In this document: positions 2,285 to 8,331 of the stretch, one piece after another | Layout of the letters: each line of letters opens with the position of its first letter | Position numbering within the stretch: position 1 is the first letter of the stretch | Origin: a virus | Length of the DNA: 22,815 nucleotides | Virus record (IMG/VR): IMGVR_UViG_3300020160_000370 | Location: 1 to 22,815 of that record | Reading direction: 5' to 3' (one strand) | Notes under the pieces: generated by a model | Told to the model about the DNA's origin: nothing | The model's input: the letters and a program-made list of their open reading frames with translations, nothing else | Database searches by the model: none | Made by a program: the position numbers and the translations under genes

Positions 2285-4282
2285 TTGTTCGGGAAGCGCA
2301 AGGAGTGGACGCCGCCCAACGCGGCGCAAGTCAAGGAGATGTGGACCGAGTGTGTCGATGACATGCTCGAGCTGCGCCGCAACTACTGGCTCAACAGTTC
2401 GTTCTTCCACGGCGACCAGTGGGTCGGCTGGAATGACTCGTCCGCATCGGTCGAGCTGATGACGTTCTTGGATCAGAACGAGTCGAAGTACCGGTCCACC
2501 GTCAACAAGTTCAAGCCCCGAGTGCTGTCGTTGCAGGCCCGCCTGTCGCAGACGCCGCTCACGTTCGAGCCGCGCCCCGATGGCGTGGACGCCGGCGCGC
2601 TCCGCAAGGCGCGCATCATGCGCCAGATCCTGCAAGCGAAGCACCACCGCGACGACTGGGAGTGGATTCGCAGCGAGAACTTGCAGAACACGATCCTCGG
2701 TGGTGCCGCCGCCATCTGCGTCGAACCGTCGTGGGAGTTCGAGACGGAGCCGACGACCGACTTGCAGACCGGCGAGCCGATCTACCTGCCCGAGCGTCCG
2801 TCGATCAAGCTGACCGCGCTCACCCCCGTCGAGTTCGGCATCGAACCCGGTTCCCGCTCGTGGCGTGACGCAAAGTGGTGGATTCGGTGCACCACGCTCA
2901 CTCCCCGTCAAGCAAAGGACCGGTACGGGCTGGCCGAGGAACCGAAGGCCGACGCCGACGCATCGGCATCCCCGATGCAGCGCACCCTCATCTCCAACCG
3001 CAACCGTGGCCGGCAGACCACCAAGGCGTGCCTCGTGTACGTCTACTACGAGCGCCCCTGTGAGGGCGCGCCCGGGTGTGTCGTGCACGTCGTCGGCGGC
3101 AACATCGTGTTCCAGTCCGAGTGGCCGTTCGACTTCGAGGACCGCCTCAACCTGCGCCCGTTCATCCAGACCCGCATGACCGGGACGTGGAAGGGCGACA
3201 CGATCTGCAACGACGCCCGCCAGATCCAGAAGAACATCAACCGCGCGTACACGTCGATCAACGCCCACATCGGCAAGGCCGACAACGCCCGCATGTTGAT
3301 CCCCAACGGATCCGTCATCGAGGGCGAGGACGAGATGACCGGCGAAGCCGGCGAGGTCATCCGCTACGAGCCGTCGTCCGGTGGCGAGCCGCACTGGATG
3401 AACGCCCCGCAGGTACCCCGCTGGCTCCGTGAGCACATCACGTCGCAGGAGATGGAGCTGGACGACCTGTTCTCCACCCACGCCATCTCCCGTGGTGAGC
3501 AGGTCGGTGACCGCAACTCGGGCCTCGCGCTGTCGATCCTGGCCGAGAAGGACGACACCCCGCTGGGGCTCATGTCCGGTGACCAGCAGCGCGGGTGGCA
3601 AGACCTGTGCGAGATGGTGCTCATGTGCGAGCGGTATCTGCTGGAGCAGGCATCCGAGGGCGGCGCCCCGATGGAGGTCGAGGAAGTTCTGCCTGGTCAG
3701 AACCACGACGACTCGCCCGAGGAAGTCCGCTACCGGGCCACCGACATCTCAGAGCATCCGATCGTGCACATCCCGCTCGACGCCGTGATGCCGAAGTCGC
3801 AGGCCGCAGTGCAGGACATGATGCTCCGGTTCGCCCAGTCGTTCCCGCAGATGTTCCAGCAGATGGGGCCGAGCCAGTTGGCGCAGATTCTCCAAGTGCC
3901 CGACCCGTTCGCGTTCACCTACACCGGCGACCCGCAGGTCGATCTCGCCACCTGGGAGAACAGCCGCATGGTCGCCGGCGCCGACGACTACGAGGTGGAG
4001 ATTGCGGACTGGCACGACCACGACGTGCATGTGCAGGAGCACAACCGCATCCGCGCCACGTCGTCCTACCGCAACGCACCGCAAGAGGTGCGCGAGTACA
4101 TCGACCTGCACGTCCAGGCGCACACGACGATGGCCGCACAGATGATGCAGCAGCAGATGATGCAGCAGATGCAACAGCAGATGATGCAGCAGCAGCAACA
4201 GTTCGCTCTCCCGCAAGGGGGCGAGCCGCCCGCCGATCCGGCGCAGGCGGCAGCAGACAACCAGGGGGTTCCCGTCCAATGA
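2285..4282 (+). CDS. Portal protein (podovirus/P22-like type)
   Basis: This 665-residue protein is interpreted as the dodecameric ring through which DNA is packaged and ejected. Evidence is its place after terL and before a scaffold and coat gene, its length, and portal-like text in the first 150 residues (an NKFKPRVLSLQARL segment, a RKARIMRQIL helix, and ILGGAAAICVEPSWEF). The start is TTG at 2285, immediately after the previous TAG; a strong GGAGGT at 2272-2277, 7 nt upstream, decides it. Residues about 619-640 form a run of almost only methionine and glutamine, followed by a Pro/Gln/Ala-rich end. This is unusual, but it lies where some portals have a long helical barrel. The stop overlaps the scaffold ATG (ATGA). 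Confidence 0.9.
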   Translation: MFGKRKEWTPPNAAQVKEMWTECVDDMLELRRNYWLNSSFFHGDQWVGWNDSSASVELMTFLDQNESKYRSTVNKFKPRVLSLQARLSQTPLTFEPRPDGVDAGALRKARIMRQILQAKHHRDDWEWIRSENLQNTILGGAAAICVEPSWEFETEPTTDLQTGEPIYLPERPSIKLTALTPVEFGIEPGSRSWRDAKWWIRCTTLTPRQAKDRYGLAEEPKADADASASPMQRTLISNRNRGRQTTKACLVYVYYERPCEGAPGCVVHVVGGNIVFQSEWPFDFEDRLNLRPFIQTRMTGTWKGDTICNDARQIQKNINRAYTSINAHIGKADNARMLIPNGSVIEGEDEMTGEAGEVIRYEPSSGGEPHWMNAPQVPRWLREHITSQEMELDDLFSTHAISRGEQVGDRNSGLALSILAEKDDTPLGLMSGDQQRGWQDLCEMVLMCERYLLEQASEGGAPMEVEEVLPGQNHDDSPEEVRYRATDISEHPIVHIPLDAVMPKSQAAVQDMMLRFAQSFPQMFQQMGPSQLAQILQVPDPFAFTYTGDPQVDLATWENSRMVAGADDYEVEIADWHDHDVHVQEHNRIRATSSYRNAPQEVREYIDLHVQAHTTMAAQMMQQQMMQQMQQQMMQQQQQFALPQGGEPPADPAQAAADNQGVPVQ

Positions 4283-5010
4283 GTGACATCCAGACCGACC
4301 AGACCGTTGCGGACGCCATCGACCAGGGCGCACCGCCCGCTGGCGAGCAGGACTACCGCGCGCTGTGGGAGCAGGAGAAGTCCGAGCGCATCAAGGAGCG
4401 GAACCTGTACCGCCCGGTGCAGCGCATCCTGTCCGACCTCGACACCGAATCGGTGAGCGCCATCAGCGCGCTGGCCGACATGGTGCGCCGTGGCGACACC
4501 GAGGGCATCACCGAGTGGTCGCTGGCGACCGCACAGAACGTGACCGGCAAGGATCTCGCCGCCATCATCGCCGCCCGCCAGAACGGCCAGGCACCCTCCA
4601 CGATCGGCCAGCCGGCAGCGGAACCCACCGCCCCCGCCCAGCAGCAGTTCGATCCGGCGCAGATCAAGCAGATGGTGCAGGAAGCTGCGGCCGAGCAGGT
4701 GCGTGTGGCGAGTCTCGCCGCGCAGATCAAGTCCGAGCTGGACTCGTCGGGCTACGCGCAGGGCGACCCCGCCACGCAGGTCATCATCCAGTACGCCCGC
4801 CAGAACAACGTGCCGATCAACGAGGCGATCGAGTGGTTCGAGGCCGACGCCACCGCCAAGGTCGCCCAGCGCAACCAGCGTCTCGCACAGGTCGCCGCCG
4901 CCACCCCGGCGCCGGCGCCCGATGGCGCCCCCGCCGCGACCGCACCGGCGCCGGACATGACCCCCCGGGACAAGGCGATGGCGCGCTTGCGCGCTGGCTC
5001 GATGGGGTGA
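4279..5010 (+). CDS. Probable capsid scaffolding protein
   Basis: This is a 243-residue, hydrophilic, helix-rich protein with glutamine- and alanine-rich stretches and no hydrophobic core typical of an enzyme. It has a helical N-terminal segment (EQEKSERIKERNLYRPVQRIL), a central QQQFDPAQIKQMVQEA helix and an Ala/Pro-rich linker. A short basic C-terminus (PRDKAMARLRAGSMG) would suit coat-protein binding. Portal-scaffold-coat is the standard order. Scaffold proteins guide coat assembly and are then removed. ATG 4279 overlaps the portal stop as ATGA, so the long frame upstream inside the portal gene is not coding. Function is inferred from order and composition. Confidence 0.82.
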   Translation: MSDIQTDQTVADAIDQGAPPAGEQDYRALWEQEKSERIKERNLYRPVQRILSDLDTESVSAISALADMVRRGDTEGITEWSLATAQNVTGKDLAAIIAARQNGQAPSTIGQPAAEPTAPAQQQFDPAQIKQMVQEAAAEQVRVASLAAQIKSELDSSGYAQGDPATQVIIQYARQNNVPINEAIEWFEADATAKVAQRNQRLAQVAAATPAPAPDGAPAATAPAPDMTPRDKAMARLRAGSMG

Positions 5011-5013
5011 TGC

Positions 5014-5042
5014 TTGCACCGCGCGCGTCGGTGGCGTATGGT
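5014..5042 (+). promoter_or_regulatory. Sigma70-type promoter candidate for the coat gene leader
   Basis: TTGCAC (5014-5019) and TATGGT (5037-5042) are separated by exactly 17 nt, immediately after the scaffold stop and at the head of the only gap over 200 nt in the window. Transcription would start near 5049-5051, giving a leader of about 205 nt that includes all four hairpins described below. The TATGGT also belongs to a motif shared with the gaps at 11649 and 13771. Confidence 0.5.
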
Positions 5043-5064
5043 GGGACTCGACATACGTGTACCG

Positions 5065-5080
5065 CTCCGTGGATTCGGGG
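5065..5080 (+). ncRNA. Leader hairpin 1 (TGGATT hexaloop)
   Basis: CTCCG (5065-5069) pairs with CGGGG (5076-5080), with one G-T wobble at the fourth pair, and presents loop TGGATT (5070-5075). It is the first of four copies of GTGGATTC in the coat-gene leader. Confidence 0.5.
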
Positions 5081-5086
5081 TAGGGA

Positions 5087-5110
5087 GGACGACGGTGGAT
5101 TCCTGAGTCC
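5087..5110 (+). ncRNA. Leader hairpin 2 (TGGATT hexaloop, internal loop)
   Basis: GGAC (5087-5090) pairs with GTCC (5107-5110). Inside, GG (5094-5095) pairs with CC (5102-5103) around loop TGGATT (5096-5101). Between the two helices is a 3x3 internal loop (GAC/TGA) that could form tandem G-A pairs. It is the weakest of the four in canonical pairing. Confidence 0.4.
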
Positions 5111-5117
5111 GTGAGGC

Positions 5118-5133
5118 CGTGGTGGATTCCACG
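5118..5133 (+). ncRNA. Leader hairpin 3 (TGGATT hexaloop)
   Basis: CGTGG (5118-5122) pairs perfectly with CCACG (5129-5133) around loop TGGATT (5123-5128). Its start-to-start spacing from hairpin 2 (27 nt) nearly equals that between hairpins 1 and 2 (26 nt). Confidence 0.5.
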
Positions 5134-5182
5134 CTCGCCCGAGGTGAACCGCACGCACAGGTCATGCCGAACAGCAGGTCAA

Positions 5183-5196
5183 GGGGTGGATTCCCC
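5183..5196 (+). ncRNA. Leader hairpin 4 (TGGATT hexaloop)
   Basis: GGGG (5183-5186) pairs with CCCC (5193-5196) around loop TGGATT (5187-5192). A further 6-bp helix, TGCCGA (5165-5170) with TCGGCA (5209-5214), could enclose it, giving a closed domain just before the coat ribosome site (AGGGAG, 5239-5244). Confidence 0.5.
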
Positions 5197-5254
5197 GTAG
5201 CAGGCGCATCGGCACCGCTCATGCAACCGCTTCATCACAGGGAGTAGAACACCC

Positions 5255-6508
5255 ATGCCCACCGCAACGCAGGTCGATGCCATCCTCCGCGACGATTACA
5301 AGTCGTACTGGGAGAACCTGAACCAAGAGACGTGGCTCCTGGCCCAGCTCGAGGTCAACAAGGACGACATCCAGGGCCGCATCGCCCGCCACTCGATCCA
5401 CACCGGCCGCTCGGGCGGTCTCGGTGCCCGCGTCGAAGGCGCCACCCTCCCCACCGCCGACCAGCAGCGTCACGCCACCGTCCCGGTGCCCGTCCGCTGG
5501 AACACGGCCCGCATCCAGCTCACCGTGCAGCTCATGGCGATGGCGACCGGCGAGCCCGGTTCGTTCATCAACGCCCTCGAGTCCGAAATGTCGATCAAGA
5601 ACGACGTGCGTCGTGACATGAACCGACAGGTGTTCGGCACCTCGAACGGCGTGATCGCCACCTGCGGCACCACCACCACGTCGGTCACGATCCAGCTTCT
5701 CGCCGCCACCACGGCAGCGCAGATGCGGCACTTCTACGTCGGCCGCTACGTGGACATCGGCACCGTCGCCAGCCCCTTCACCGTGGCGCAGGCCCGTCAG
5801 ATCACCGCCGTGGACGCCACCAACAAGACGATCACTGTCTCGGGCGCCACGCTCTCGACCACCTCGGGTACGCACTTCGTGTTCAACTCGGGTTCGGGCG
5901 GTGCGTCGGACAACACCGGCAACGTCAACGACGGCCAGGCCGAGATGACCGGGTTGCAGACCATCATGTCCACCTCGGCCGTGCTGCTCACCCTCATCCC
6001 GTCGAGCCAGCCGGTGTGGAAGGCGCAGGTCTACTCCAACAGCGGCACCAACCGTCCGCTGTCGGAGACGCAGATCGACCTCGCGCTGCTCAACAATCAG
6101 GTCGAGTCCGGTGAGACGGTCAACGCCCTGGTCAGCAACGCAGGCGTGTTCGTCGCCGGCAAGGCGATCCTGTCGGCGTATCAGCGCAACATGGACACGA
6201 TGGAGTTCAAGGGCGGCTTCAAGGGCATCAAGTGGAGCACCCCCGGCATCTCCGGCATCGCCGGTGAGGAACTGGGCTGGGTGGCCGACTTCGACTGCCC
6301 CGCCAACACCCTGTACGGCATCAACACCAACAAGCTGATCGCCCACCAGATCGGTGACGGCTGGAACTGGATGGACGACGACGGGGCGATCCTGTCCCGC
6401 GTGCAGAACAGCCTCGCCTACGAGGCCGTGCTCTACACGAGCCTCGAGTTGGCCTGCGTGCAGCGCAACGCCCACTTCGCCATCACGGACCTCACCGAAG
6501 CGTCCTGA
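5255..6508 (+). CDS. Major capsid (coat) protein, HK97-fold type
   Basis: This 417-residue protein is interpreted as the shell subunit. Evidence is the standard place after portal and scaffold, the size, its own promoter-like region, leader and ribosome site (AGGGAG, 10 nt before ATG), and a mixed alpha/beta composition. An N-terminal helix (AILRDDYKSYWENLN) is followed by a segment that could be the E-loop region and then a helix like the long spine helix (SFINALESEMSIKNDVRRDMNRQVFG, about residues 103-128; only a prediction). Codon use is strongly G/C-ending, with frequent ATC, GTC and ACC, as expected for a highly expressed gene. No cleavage site is evident and the N-terminus is short, so the separate scaffold gene probably does the assembly work. 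The fold assignment is family-level inference. Confidence 0.88.
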   Translation: MPTATQVDAILRDDYKSYWENLNQETWLLAQLEVNKDDIQGRIARHSIHTGRSGGLGARVEGATLPTADQQRHATVPVPVRWNTARIQLTVQLMAMATGEPGSFINALESEMSIKNDVRRDMNRQVFGTSNGVIATCGTTTTSVTIQLLAATTAAQMRHFYVGRYVDIGTVASPFTVAQARQITAVDATNKTITVSGATLSTTSGTHFVFNSGSGGASDNTGNVNDGQAEMTGLQTIMSTSAVLLTLIPSSQPVWKAQVYSNSGTNRPLSETQIDLALLNNQVESGETVNALVSNAGVFVAGKAILSAYQRNMDTMEFKGGFKGIKWSTPGISGIAGEELGWVADFDCPANTLYGINTNKLIAHQIGDGWNWMDDDGAILSRVQNSLAYEAVLYTSLELACVQRNAHFAITDLTEAS

Positions 6509-6518
6509 CCAACTGATC

Positions 6519-6556
6519 GTGCACCGGGGCCGAGCCCCCCATCGGTCCCGGTGCAC
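6519..6556 (+). terminator. Strong 15-bp stem-loop after the coat gene (terminator or processing site)
   Basis: Bases 6519-6533 pair with 6542-6556 over 15 positions with a single G-T wobble, closing an 8-nt C-rich loop. The outer ten pairs are a perfect repeat of GTGCACCGGG with CCCGGTGCAC. It starts 10 nt after the coat stop. No T-run follows, so it may be a U-less (actinobacterial-style) partial terminator, or a structure that stabilises the coat mRNA and lowers downstream expression. Confidence 0.65.
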
Positions 6557-6582
6557 GCCCTCACCGCAGAGAGGAAAGCCTC

Positions 6583-6906
6583 ATGGCACTCACCTACACC
6601 CTGGACGATCGGCAGCTCATCGGCACCAAGCGGTGCGTGCGCGGCGTCGTCACGTTCGACTCGTCGTACCCGACCGGTGGTGAGCCCTTCACCGCCGCCG
6701 ACTTCGGCCTCAGCGCGATCACCGATGTCGAGGCGCAGACCTCGACCACCGGCTACGCCGTCATGTGGGATCGCTCCACGTCGGCGCCGAAGCTGATGGC
6801 GTTCTACGGCGACAACAACAACGCCTCGGACGGCCCGCTCATCGAGGTGCCGAACACCACCAACCTCTCCACCGTGGTCACGCGAGTGGCGGTGTACGGG
6901 TACTGA
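6583..6906 (+). CDS. Small head-associated structural protein, unknown (decoration-like)
   Basis: This 107-residue protein has predicted beta strands separated by Thr/Ser-rich turns and ends in VVTRVAVYGY. ATG 6583 has a good GAGGAAAG ribosome site. I recall short proteins with a similar LSTVVTRVAV ending directly after coat genes in other phages, but cannot name a family. The likely role is shell decoration or head completion, from position after the coat stem-loop and before the adaptor. No catalytic motif is visible. Confidence 0.72.
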   Translation: MALTYTLDDRQLIGTKRCVRGVVTFDSSYPTGGEPFTAADFGLSAITDVEAQTSTTGYAVMWDRSTSAPKLMAFYGDNNNASDGPLIEVPNTTNLSTVVTRVAVYGY

Positions 6907-6907
6907 C

Positions 6908-7393
6908 ATGGGGATGACCACCGACACGATGCTGTCCTCGCTCGAGGCCAACGGCGTCCTGCACCTTTCGATGGCGCAGATCGGTGACCTCATGGATCTC
7001 GACCGCCGTGTGAAGGAGGGCGATGAGTGCGGATGGCGGGGCGACCCGACCATGGGCATCTTCATCAACCGCTTCACCGGCGAGTTCGAGGTGTGGGGGG
7101 TTGACCGGGGCGGCAACCAGTACAAGGCCGCATCGCACCACAAGCTCGACCACACGCTGCTCATCAAGCTGCGCGAGGGCGACCCGACGAAGCACGACGT
7201 GTTCCAGCGGGTGCTCGACGCCAACGAGAAGTTGAAGGCCGACCGCGACCAGGCGAACCGGGAGAAGGCCGCAGAGGTGGCCGACAAGCTGGCATGGGGC
7301 ATCCGTCAGGACTTCTCCCAGCACCTCGGCGGGCGCCGGCGCCAGTGGCACATCGACAAGGGCGAGTCGTCGCCCGTCACGAGCAAGGACTGA
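6908..7393 (+). CDS. Hypothetical protein in head module, basic helical C-terminus
   Basis: The product is 161 residues. The N-terminal half contains a small beta-like section (MGIFINRFTGEFEVWGVDRGGNQY, about residues 48-71). The second half is a long charged helix (about 85-140; ANEKLKADRDQANREKAAEVADKL) that could form a coiled coil. The start lies 1 nt after the previous stop, and a second in-frame ATG follows two codons later, so the exact start is uncertain by two residues. Context suggests a minor head or assembly protein. No family is recognised. Confidence 0.72.
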   Translation: MGMTTDTMLSSLEANGVLHLSMAQIGDLMDLDRRVKEGDECGWRGDPTMGIFINRFTGEFEVWGVDRGGNQYKAASHHKLDHTLLIKLREGDPTKHDVFQRVLDANEKLKADRDQANREKAAEVADKLAWGIRQDFSQHLGGRRRQWHIDKGESSPVTSKD

Positions 7394-7713: not shown

Positions 7714-8331
7714 ATGAACCGGGGGCAACTTCGCGCGGCACTCACAAGCCGCCTCGGCATCCCTGCGACCGGTGACGGCCTGCTTGATCCGAACACGCTC
7801 AACGACCTCATCGGTGTCGCCCTGCGCGACATCAGCGTGGAGTCGGACTGGCCGTGGCTGCTCACGTCGGCACCGCTGACGTTCAACGGCGACACCGCCA
7901 CCGCGCCCACCGACATGGTGAAGGCCCGCGAGTTGAAGCTCAACAACCGGCGCGCCAAGTACGCGCCGCTGTCCGAGTTCCTAGACGCACAGGGCCAGCG
8001 CGTCGTGCATGTGTGGACGACCATCGGGGTCGATGTGATCCTGTCCCCGACCCCGGGCACCGCGCCGACCGACCCGTTCCTGTACTACATCCAGTCCGAG
8101 CCGGAACTGTCGGCCGACACGGCATCGCCGCTGCTCCCCGACACCTACCACCAGGTGCTGCTCGCACGCGCCGCATACCACGCGAACACCCGCCGCAACC
8201 GGTTCGAGGAAGCGATGCGCGACGACAACGAGTACCAGTTGCTCGTCCGCAAGATGAAGGACTCGGCGTGGGCGCGCTCGGGTCCGCGCACCATCCGTGC
8301 CGCCGGCACCTCGAACTGGGCGACTTGGTGA
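7714..8331 (+). CDS. Head-to-tail adaptor protein (podovirus/SU10-like adaptor)
   Basis: This 205-residue protein probably forms the ring beneath the portal. The N-terminus carries the pattern common in such adaptors: a short helix (RGQLRAALTSRLGI), then a helix ending in RDISVESDWPWLLTS (about residues 39-53), then strands with a PTDMVKARELKLNN segment (about 66-79) and the APLSEFLDAQG stretch. The C-terminal half has a long helical region (TYHQVLLARAAYHANTRRN). Position between head genes and the probable nozzle fits. The start is ATG 7714, 2 nt after the previous stop; the frame is open far upstream but that portion overlaps two genes. TGA shares one base with the next ATG. Confidence 0.78.
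   Translation: MNRGQLRAALTSRLGIPATGDGLLDPNTLNDLIGVALRDISVESDWPWLLTSAPLTFNGDTATAPTDMVKARELKLNNRRAKYAPLSEFLDAQGQRVVHVWTTIGVDVILSPTPGTAPTDPFLYYIQSEPELSADTASPLLPDTYHQVLLARAAYHANTRRNRFEEAMRDDNEYQLLVRKMKDSAWARSGPRTIRAAGTSNWATW

Follow-up and report, generated by a model that had tools for sequence, protein, structure and literature searches.

The leader of the major capsid protein (MCP) gene in this virus contains an array of hairpins that carry GGA in their apical loops, and it is best read as a new class of structured 5′-leader RNA, a candidate multivalent platform of GGA loops. The array is probably a docking site for a putative RNA-binding factor, common to dozens of related uncultured actinobacterial viruses, and both the RNA structure of the hairpins and their conservation are well supported by sequence comparison. 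Actinobacteria, to our knowledge, largely lack the classical RNA regulators CsrA, Hfq and ProQ, so that a conserved loop-specific RNA in dozens of their phages would point to a new RNA-binding factor. Moreover, since the element precedes the capsid gene, it may show how phages abundant in freshwater and soil set the timing of particle production or raise its yield, and the combination of a tight loop code with freely changing stems would make it a clean bait for the protein and possibly a tagging tool.

The window analyzed here is the whole stretch of 22,815 nucleotides, a 22.8-kb IMG/VR virus contig that encodes, in this order, the large terminase subunit TerL, an SU10/P22-like portal, a probable scaffold, MCP and an SU10-type adaptor, followed by genes of mostly unassigned function and an amidase endolysin (Table 1). 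The gene that the initial annotation had called the coat gene indeed matches a major head protein family, and its product is 67% identical to the MCP of the related record L208. The preceding gene is a probable scaffold gene by its position: it is about 32–33% identical to, and collinear with, positions 6674–7414 of the relative L010, likewise between portal and MCP, and a gene occupies the same place in seven relatives. The capsid and scaffold proteins of the window are both acidic. The gap of 244 nt between the two genes is the leader under study.

Table 1. Coordinates of the capsid leader and neighboring features in the window.
Feature	Position	Strand	Description
TerL ORF	16–1815 as listed		Listed start too early; ATG at 175 by alignment with L010
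Probable scaffold gene	4279–5010	+	Upstream of the leader, between portal and MCP
Promoter-like element	5014–5042	+	TTGCAC-17 nt-TATGGT; predicted start near 5049–5050
Hairpin 1	5064–5081	+	Loop TGGATT 5070–5075; GCTCCG/CGGGGT, 6 pairs including two G-T
Hairpin 2	5087–5110	+	Loop TGGATT 5096–5101; GG/CC inner stem, 3×3 internal loop, GGAC/GTCC outer stem
Hairpin 3	5118–5133	+	Loop TGGATT 5123–5128; CGTGG/CCACG
Hairpin 4	5183–5196	+	Loop TGGATT 5187–5192; GGGG/CCCC
Spacer and Shine-Dalgarno-like GGGAG	5197–5254	+	43 nt spacer; GGGAG 5240–5244
Major capsid protein gene	5255–6508	+	PHROG 14242, major head protein, E = 1e-65

The four hairpins had been noticed through an 8-mer, GTGGATTC, which comprises a closing pair and the hexaloop and was found exactly as described, at 5069, 5095, 5122 and 5186; the whole window holds six copies, compared to a mean of 0.53 and a maximum of 3 in dinucleotide shuffles. 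Read from the sequence, the arms differ and yet are complementary in all four leader copies, and, counted from the loop, pair three reads C-G in copy 1, T-A in copy 3 and G-C in copy 4, the compensatory change that had been claimed, while the two copies in the portal gene (2662 and 2878) are without pairing of the leader type. Folded alone, the segments give the expected hairpins at −10.5, −7.8, −9.4 and −7.5 kcal/mol for hairpins 1 to 4, and the closing pair of hairpin 1 has a probability of 0.98 in a short nascent transcript and that of hairpin 4 a probability of 0.99 in the full leader. The minimum free energy structure of the 205-nt leader does not hold all four hairpins together, although a fold with all four lies just 3.6 kcal/mol above it. 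The full leader has no excess stability over shuffled sequences (z = +1.33), and therefore folding of a single sequence neither proves nor disproves the hairpins, and comparison decides.

Alignment-based searches with TerL and MCP recovered few relatives, among them L010 (TerL 60% identical), the nearest relative bearing TGGATT. Scanning IMG/VR for patterns of three or two copies of GTGGATTC returned mostly coding tandem repeats, with L010 as the only real match; clusters of GTGGATTC with varied flanks and without matching stems were also seen in the IMG/VR records L018, L096, L105, L107 and L108. A scan with a degenerate MCP motif yielded at least 100 relatives, and the comparison set consists of 34 non-redundant leaders, including that of the window, with MCP at least 50% identical among the matches listed. 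The MCP leader of L010 has GTGGATTC at 7859, 7888 and 7915, corresponding to three hairpins: the first has the stem CCGGG/CCCGG, the second CAGG/CCTG with a further outer helix, and the third CGG/CCG together with GGAA/UUCC. The second copy of L010 is built like hairpin 2 of the window, in that a 3×3 internal loop separates its inner stem from an outer GCC/GGC helix, although the two leaders share no similarity detectable by blastn. Turnover is also complete at shorter distance, since freshwater members with MCP 82–93% identical to one reference member have entirely different stems. The distant named relatives infect Arthrobacter, Microbacterium and Cellulosimicrobium, and where annotated their capsid gene follows the upstream gene by about 10–40 nt, thus without such a leader; no named phage was found to carry the GGA-hairpin leader, and prophage scans of genome contigs found no host.

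What is general across the 34 leaders is an array that usually comprises two to four hairpins with the loop YGGANN. The constant TGGATT loop of the initial annotation holds for all four copies in the window and turns out to be a special case of this wider motif: relatives have CGGATG, CGGATA, TGGATT, TGGATG, CGGACG and CGGAAG, L208 has TGGAGA and AGGAGA, and a few relatives contain variants such as CAGAAG, CAGGAG and CAGCAG. An unselected listing of hexaloops is headed by CGGATG, CGGATA, TGGATT, TGGATG and CGGACG, the ACATGT of a promoter palindrome aside. Loops are uniform within a phage in the window (TGGATT in four copies), L010 (TGGATT in three) and L208 ([TA]GGAGA in four); the array of L194 mixes CGGATA, TGGATA, CGGATG and TGGATT.

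An unbiased test of pairing was based on [CT]GGANN hexamers chosen regardless of their flanks, of which the 34 leaders contain 102. Four flanking pairs are present at 50% of these leader sites, compared to 2.9% of the 2373 sites that lie outside the leaders in those loci, and the control loop cores GAA, GGC, GCA and CGA reach 0–11%. Furthermore, the leader sites form on average 3.12 of 4 pairs with their own arms, versus 1.62 ± 0.09 with swapped arms. When the first hairpin of each leader was aligned without gaps, GGA was invariant in 34 of 34 and all 8 stem pairs changed on both sides, with 109 doubly changed cells versus 46.5 ± 4.8 after shuffling and a covariation score of 0.878 versus 0.230 ± 0.031, which falls to 0.12–0.18 when the alignment slides by one column. 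The remaining hairpins, a set picked by eye and mildly selected, score 0.900 versus 0.217 ± 0.040. No structure was predicted by RNAalifold on a gapped leader alignment, because the stems are too divergent and too unevenly spaced for one MAFFT alignment, and hairpin-anchored alignments were used instead; a covariance model of a single hairpin is too short to reach significance by itself.

The array occupies a fixed place in the predicted 5′ UTR, the capsid leader, in the 34 non-redundant relatives, with gene order checked in seven near-complete genomes. Hairpins satisfying strict GGA criteria are scattered through those seven genomes at a background of 0.07–0.42 per kb and strand, and they cluster only in two capsid-leader arrays and in one further pair that looks like chance; leaders whose array missed the strict criteria still hold shorter-stemmed copies. 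The comparison of related leaders that the initial annotation had called for has found relatives in which the GGA loop is kept along with the pairing and the stem sequences are wholly replaced, rather than relatives that keep the repeat and lose the pairing. Freshwater leaders also share a conserved ACATAG linker after hairpin 1. A long-range helix between GCAACC in the linker after hairpin 1 and GGTTGC near the ribosome site looked suggestive in several leaders and, if formed, could close a multiloop; it was rejected on a swap control (12.7 versus 12.5 ± 0.4).

The promoter-like element of the window is part of the leader and precedes all four hairpins; it was not called by a strict consensus scan and rests on comparison with relatives, since in most freshwater leaders TTGAC[AG]/TTGC[AG]N-like and GTGTATNNT-like boxes precede hairpin 1. 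The distance from the −10-like box to the stem of hairpin 1 is only 3–8 nt in most freshwater leaders, so that hairpin 1 should form the 5′ end of the mRNA; it is 19 nt in the window and 13 nt in L010, counting the stem with one mismatch allowed. Hairpin 1 is thus predicted to stand at the mRNA 5′ end in most relatives, with transcript starts taken from promoter-like elements only. Other features surround the capsid promoter in individual relatives. Many of them (e.g., L197, L133, L120 and L194) have a palindrome, ACAACATGTTGT or CCACAACATGTGG, that overlaps the −10 region and the spacer and is possibly a DNA operator. In L197, L133 and L207, strong terminator-like inverted repeats between the scaffold gene and the capsid promoter suggest a separate capsid transcript, and L208 has a very stable extra hairpin (CCACTCCCTCACC...GGGTGGGGGAGTGG) without a T run between the promoter and its first GGA hairpin.

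As for function, we think it reasonably likely that the leader is a structured 5′ UTR whose GGA-loop array is bound by a putative small RNA-binding protein setting the stability and output of the capsid mRNA; the protein reader, its phage origin, the direction of regulation and its timing are all things that we infer. The 5′ UTR of the capsid mRNA would present the array, four hairpins in the window and usually two to four in relatives, each displaying GGA in an apical YGGANN hexaloop, and a GGA-loop factor, most likely a small RNA-binding protein, would hold two or more of them. Docked at the transcript's 5′ end or close to it, this factor would then set capsid mRNA stability and output. Protection of the 5′ end or activation would be favored over direct blocking of the ribosome site, because the array is clear of the Shine-Dalgarno sequence (in the window, the last hairpin ends 43 nt before GGGAG) and hairpin 1 lies near the predicted 5′ end; the action of CsrA on the flhDC leader is a precedent. 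The most likely role is that a putative RNA-binding factor protects or boosts the capsid mRNA. Inspection of the core genes gave no obvious RNA-binding candidate.

A 5′ UTR in which apical loops with GGA recur is the hallmark of CsrA targets, and the hairpins do present GGA in an apical loop as CsrA sites do, which raises the question of regulation of the CsrA/RsmA type by a genuine host CsrA homolog. We regard this as highly improbable. The hosts are Actinobacteria, since relatives encode WhiB (20 of 40 related records), in agreement with the hosts of the named relatives, and CsrA was matched in only 3 of 14 control genomes and not in C. glutamicum. The A(N)GGA consensus is almost absent, as A stands two bases before GGA in 0 of 34 first hairpins and 4 of 47 others (4 of 81 in all), where that base is the 5′ base of the closing pair, counted as a standard pair; nor is the Shine-Dalgarno sequence covered. 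The caution on CsrA in the initial annotation was hence justified, both by this consensus and by the lack of CsrA in 40 related phage records, many of them partial. A ribosome decoy was considered and rejected, as GGAU loops offer the anti-Shine-Dalgarno only three bases; L208, with its AGGAGA loop, would be the better fit.

Three further readings were considered. A purely structural 5′ stabilizer against 5′-end-dependent decay, without any specific reader, would agree with the place of hairpin 1, which in most relatives is predicted to lie at the 5′ end or close to it, and with the free turnover of stems, but appears unlikely, as it leaves unexplained why GGA is invariant in all first hairpins and why one loop type is used per phage (TGGATT in the window and L010, [TA]GGAGA in L208). 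The location of the array, immediately 3′ of a promoter-like element and heading the structural genes from capsid onward in the window and relatives, is compatible with antitermination by a put- or nut-like element in the nascent RNA, which would modify RNA polymerase as it leaves the capsid promoter into the late operon. This is distinctly unlikely given that hairpin number (2–4) and spacing vary and the stems are unconstrained, unlike the conserved put stems, and that neither a cognate antiterminator nor, within 4700–7000 of the window, a terminator-like site to bypass was found. Finally, the spacing of three window copies, 26–27 nt apart, had suggested iteron-like binding to DNA, and an element at the DNA level might consist of inverted repeats or iterons recognized by a phage protein, or of cruciforms. 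The array, however, lies just downstream of the promoter-like element, which makes DNA-level binding less likely; it keeps the pairing and not the arm sequence, its spacing is not kept (starts 26, 27 and 64 nt apart in the window, 29 and 27 nt in L010), and it is always the coding strand of the capsid gene that reads GGA in the loop. We thus hold a DNA element to be very unlikely, although a strand test in the stems, which counted G-U against A-C as 11 versus 3 in the inner three pairs and 12 versus 7 in a stricter set, is not significant in the latter (p = 0.37), so that sequence alone is no proof of RNA over DNA.

Returning to the docking-site reading, one close likeness is with CsrA/RsmA leaders and the CsrB/RsmZ sponge RNAs, which share repeated GGA apical-loop hairpins, variable stems and a multivalent layout with the window. 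CsrA binds GGA motifs (PMC4894983). In the capsid leaders, GGA occupies loop positions 2–4 behind a pyrimidine rather than the A(N)GGA of CsrA/RsmA sites, and the setting also differs, being leaders of actinobacterial phages in which no csrA was found and the Shine-Dalgarno is uncovered; we conclude that the array would work like a CsrA-type multivalent GGA platform yet fails the CsrA site consensus. TwoAYGGAY is, by name, a candidate RNA family of hairpins with GGA-bearing loops, in this respect like the capsid leader, its loop being AYGGAY by name and here YGGANN. That motif was reported from the human gut, gamma-Proteobacteria and Clostridiales (Weinberg et al. 2010, PMC2864571). Rfam scans covering the window and ten relatives gave no match to its covariance model, nor did any other Rfam 15 family reach the gathering score there, and no description of this hairpin array was found in the literature. 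With no Rfam match and no named phage found to carry it, the array is, as far as such comparison goes, a previously unlisted leader RNA.

Among phage systems, the MS2/PP7 coat hairpins and the T4 RegA and gp43 operators are single sites at the ribosome-binding region. They resemble the window in that RNA before a phage gene serves as a protein-binding control site, whereas here several hairpins with a different loop stand upstream of that region. The HK022 put RNA has conserved stems and acts on RNA polymerase; put and lambda nut, like the array, are found just 3′ of a phage promoter, but in the capsid leaders only the loop core is kept and the copy number varies.

Sister lineages with MCP 36–44% identical have capsid-leader hairpins of another type, with the pentaloop CTGGT (or CAGGT) and likewise varying stems; such leaders occur in L192, L118, L224, L129, L145 and L186, the last with three copies. 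Uniformity of the loop within a phage, together with a different loop in sister lineages, hints at a lineage-specific reader. Tentatively, actinobacterial phages might own a GGA-loop RNA-binding system, a functional analog of CsrA with a reader perhaps encoded by the phage, that acts on capsid-mRNA arrays with loop codes differing by lineage, YGGANN hexaloops here and CUGGU pentaloops in the sisters. In L190, the last ~160 nt before MCP contain repeats of GGTGCGGAGCCTGATGC(T/A)CGGC, apparently a related hairpin array with the loop CTGAT.
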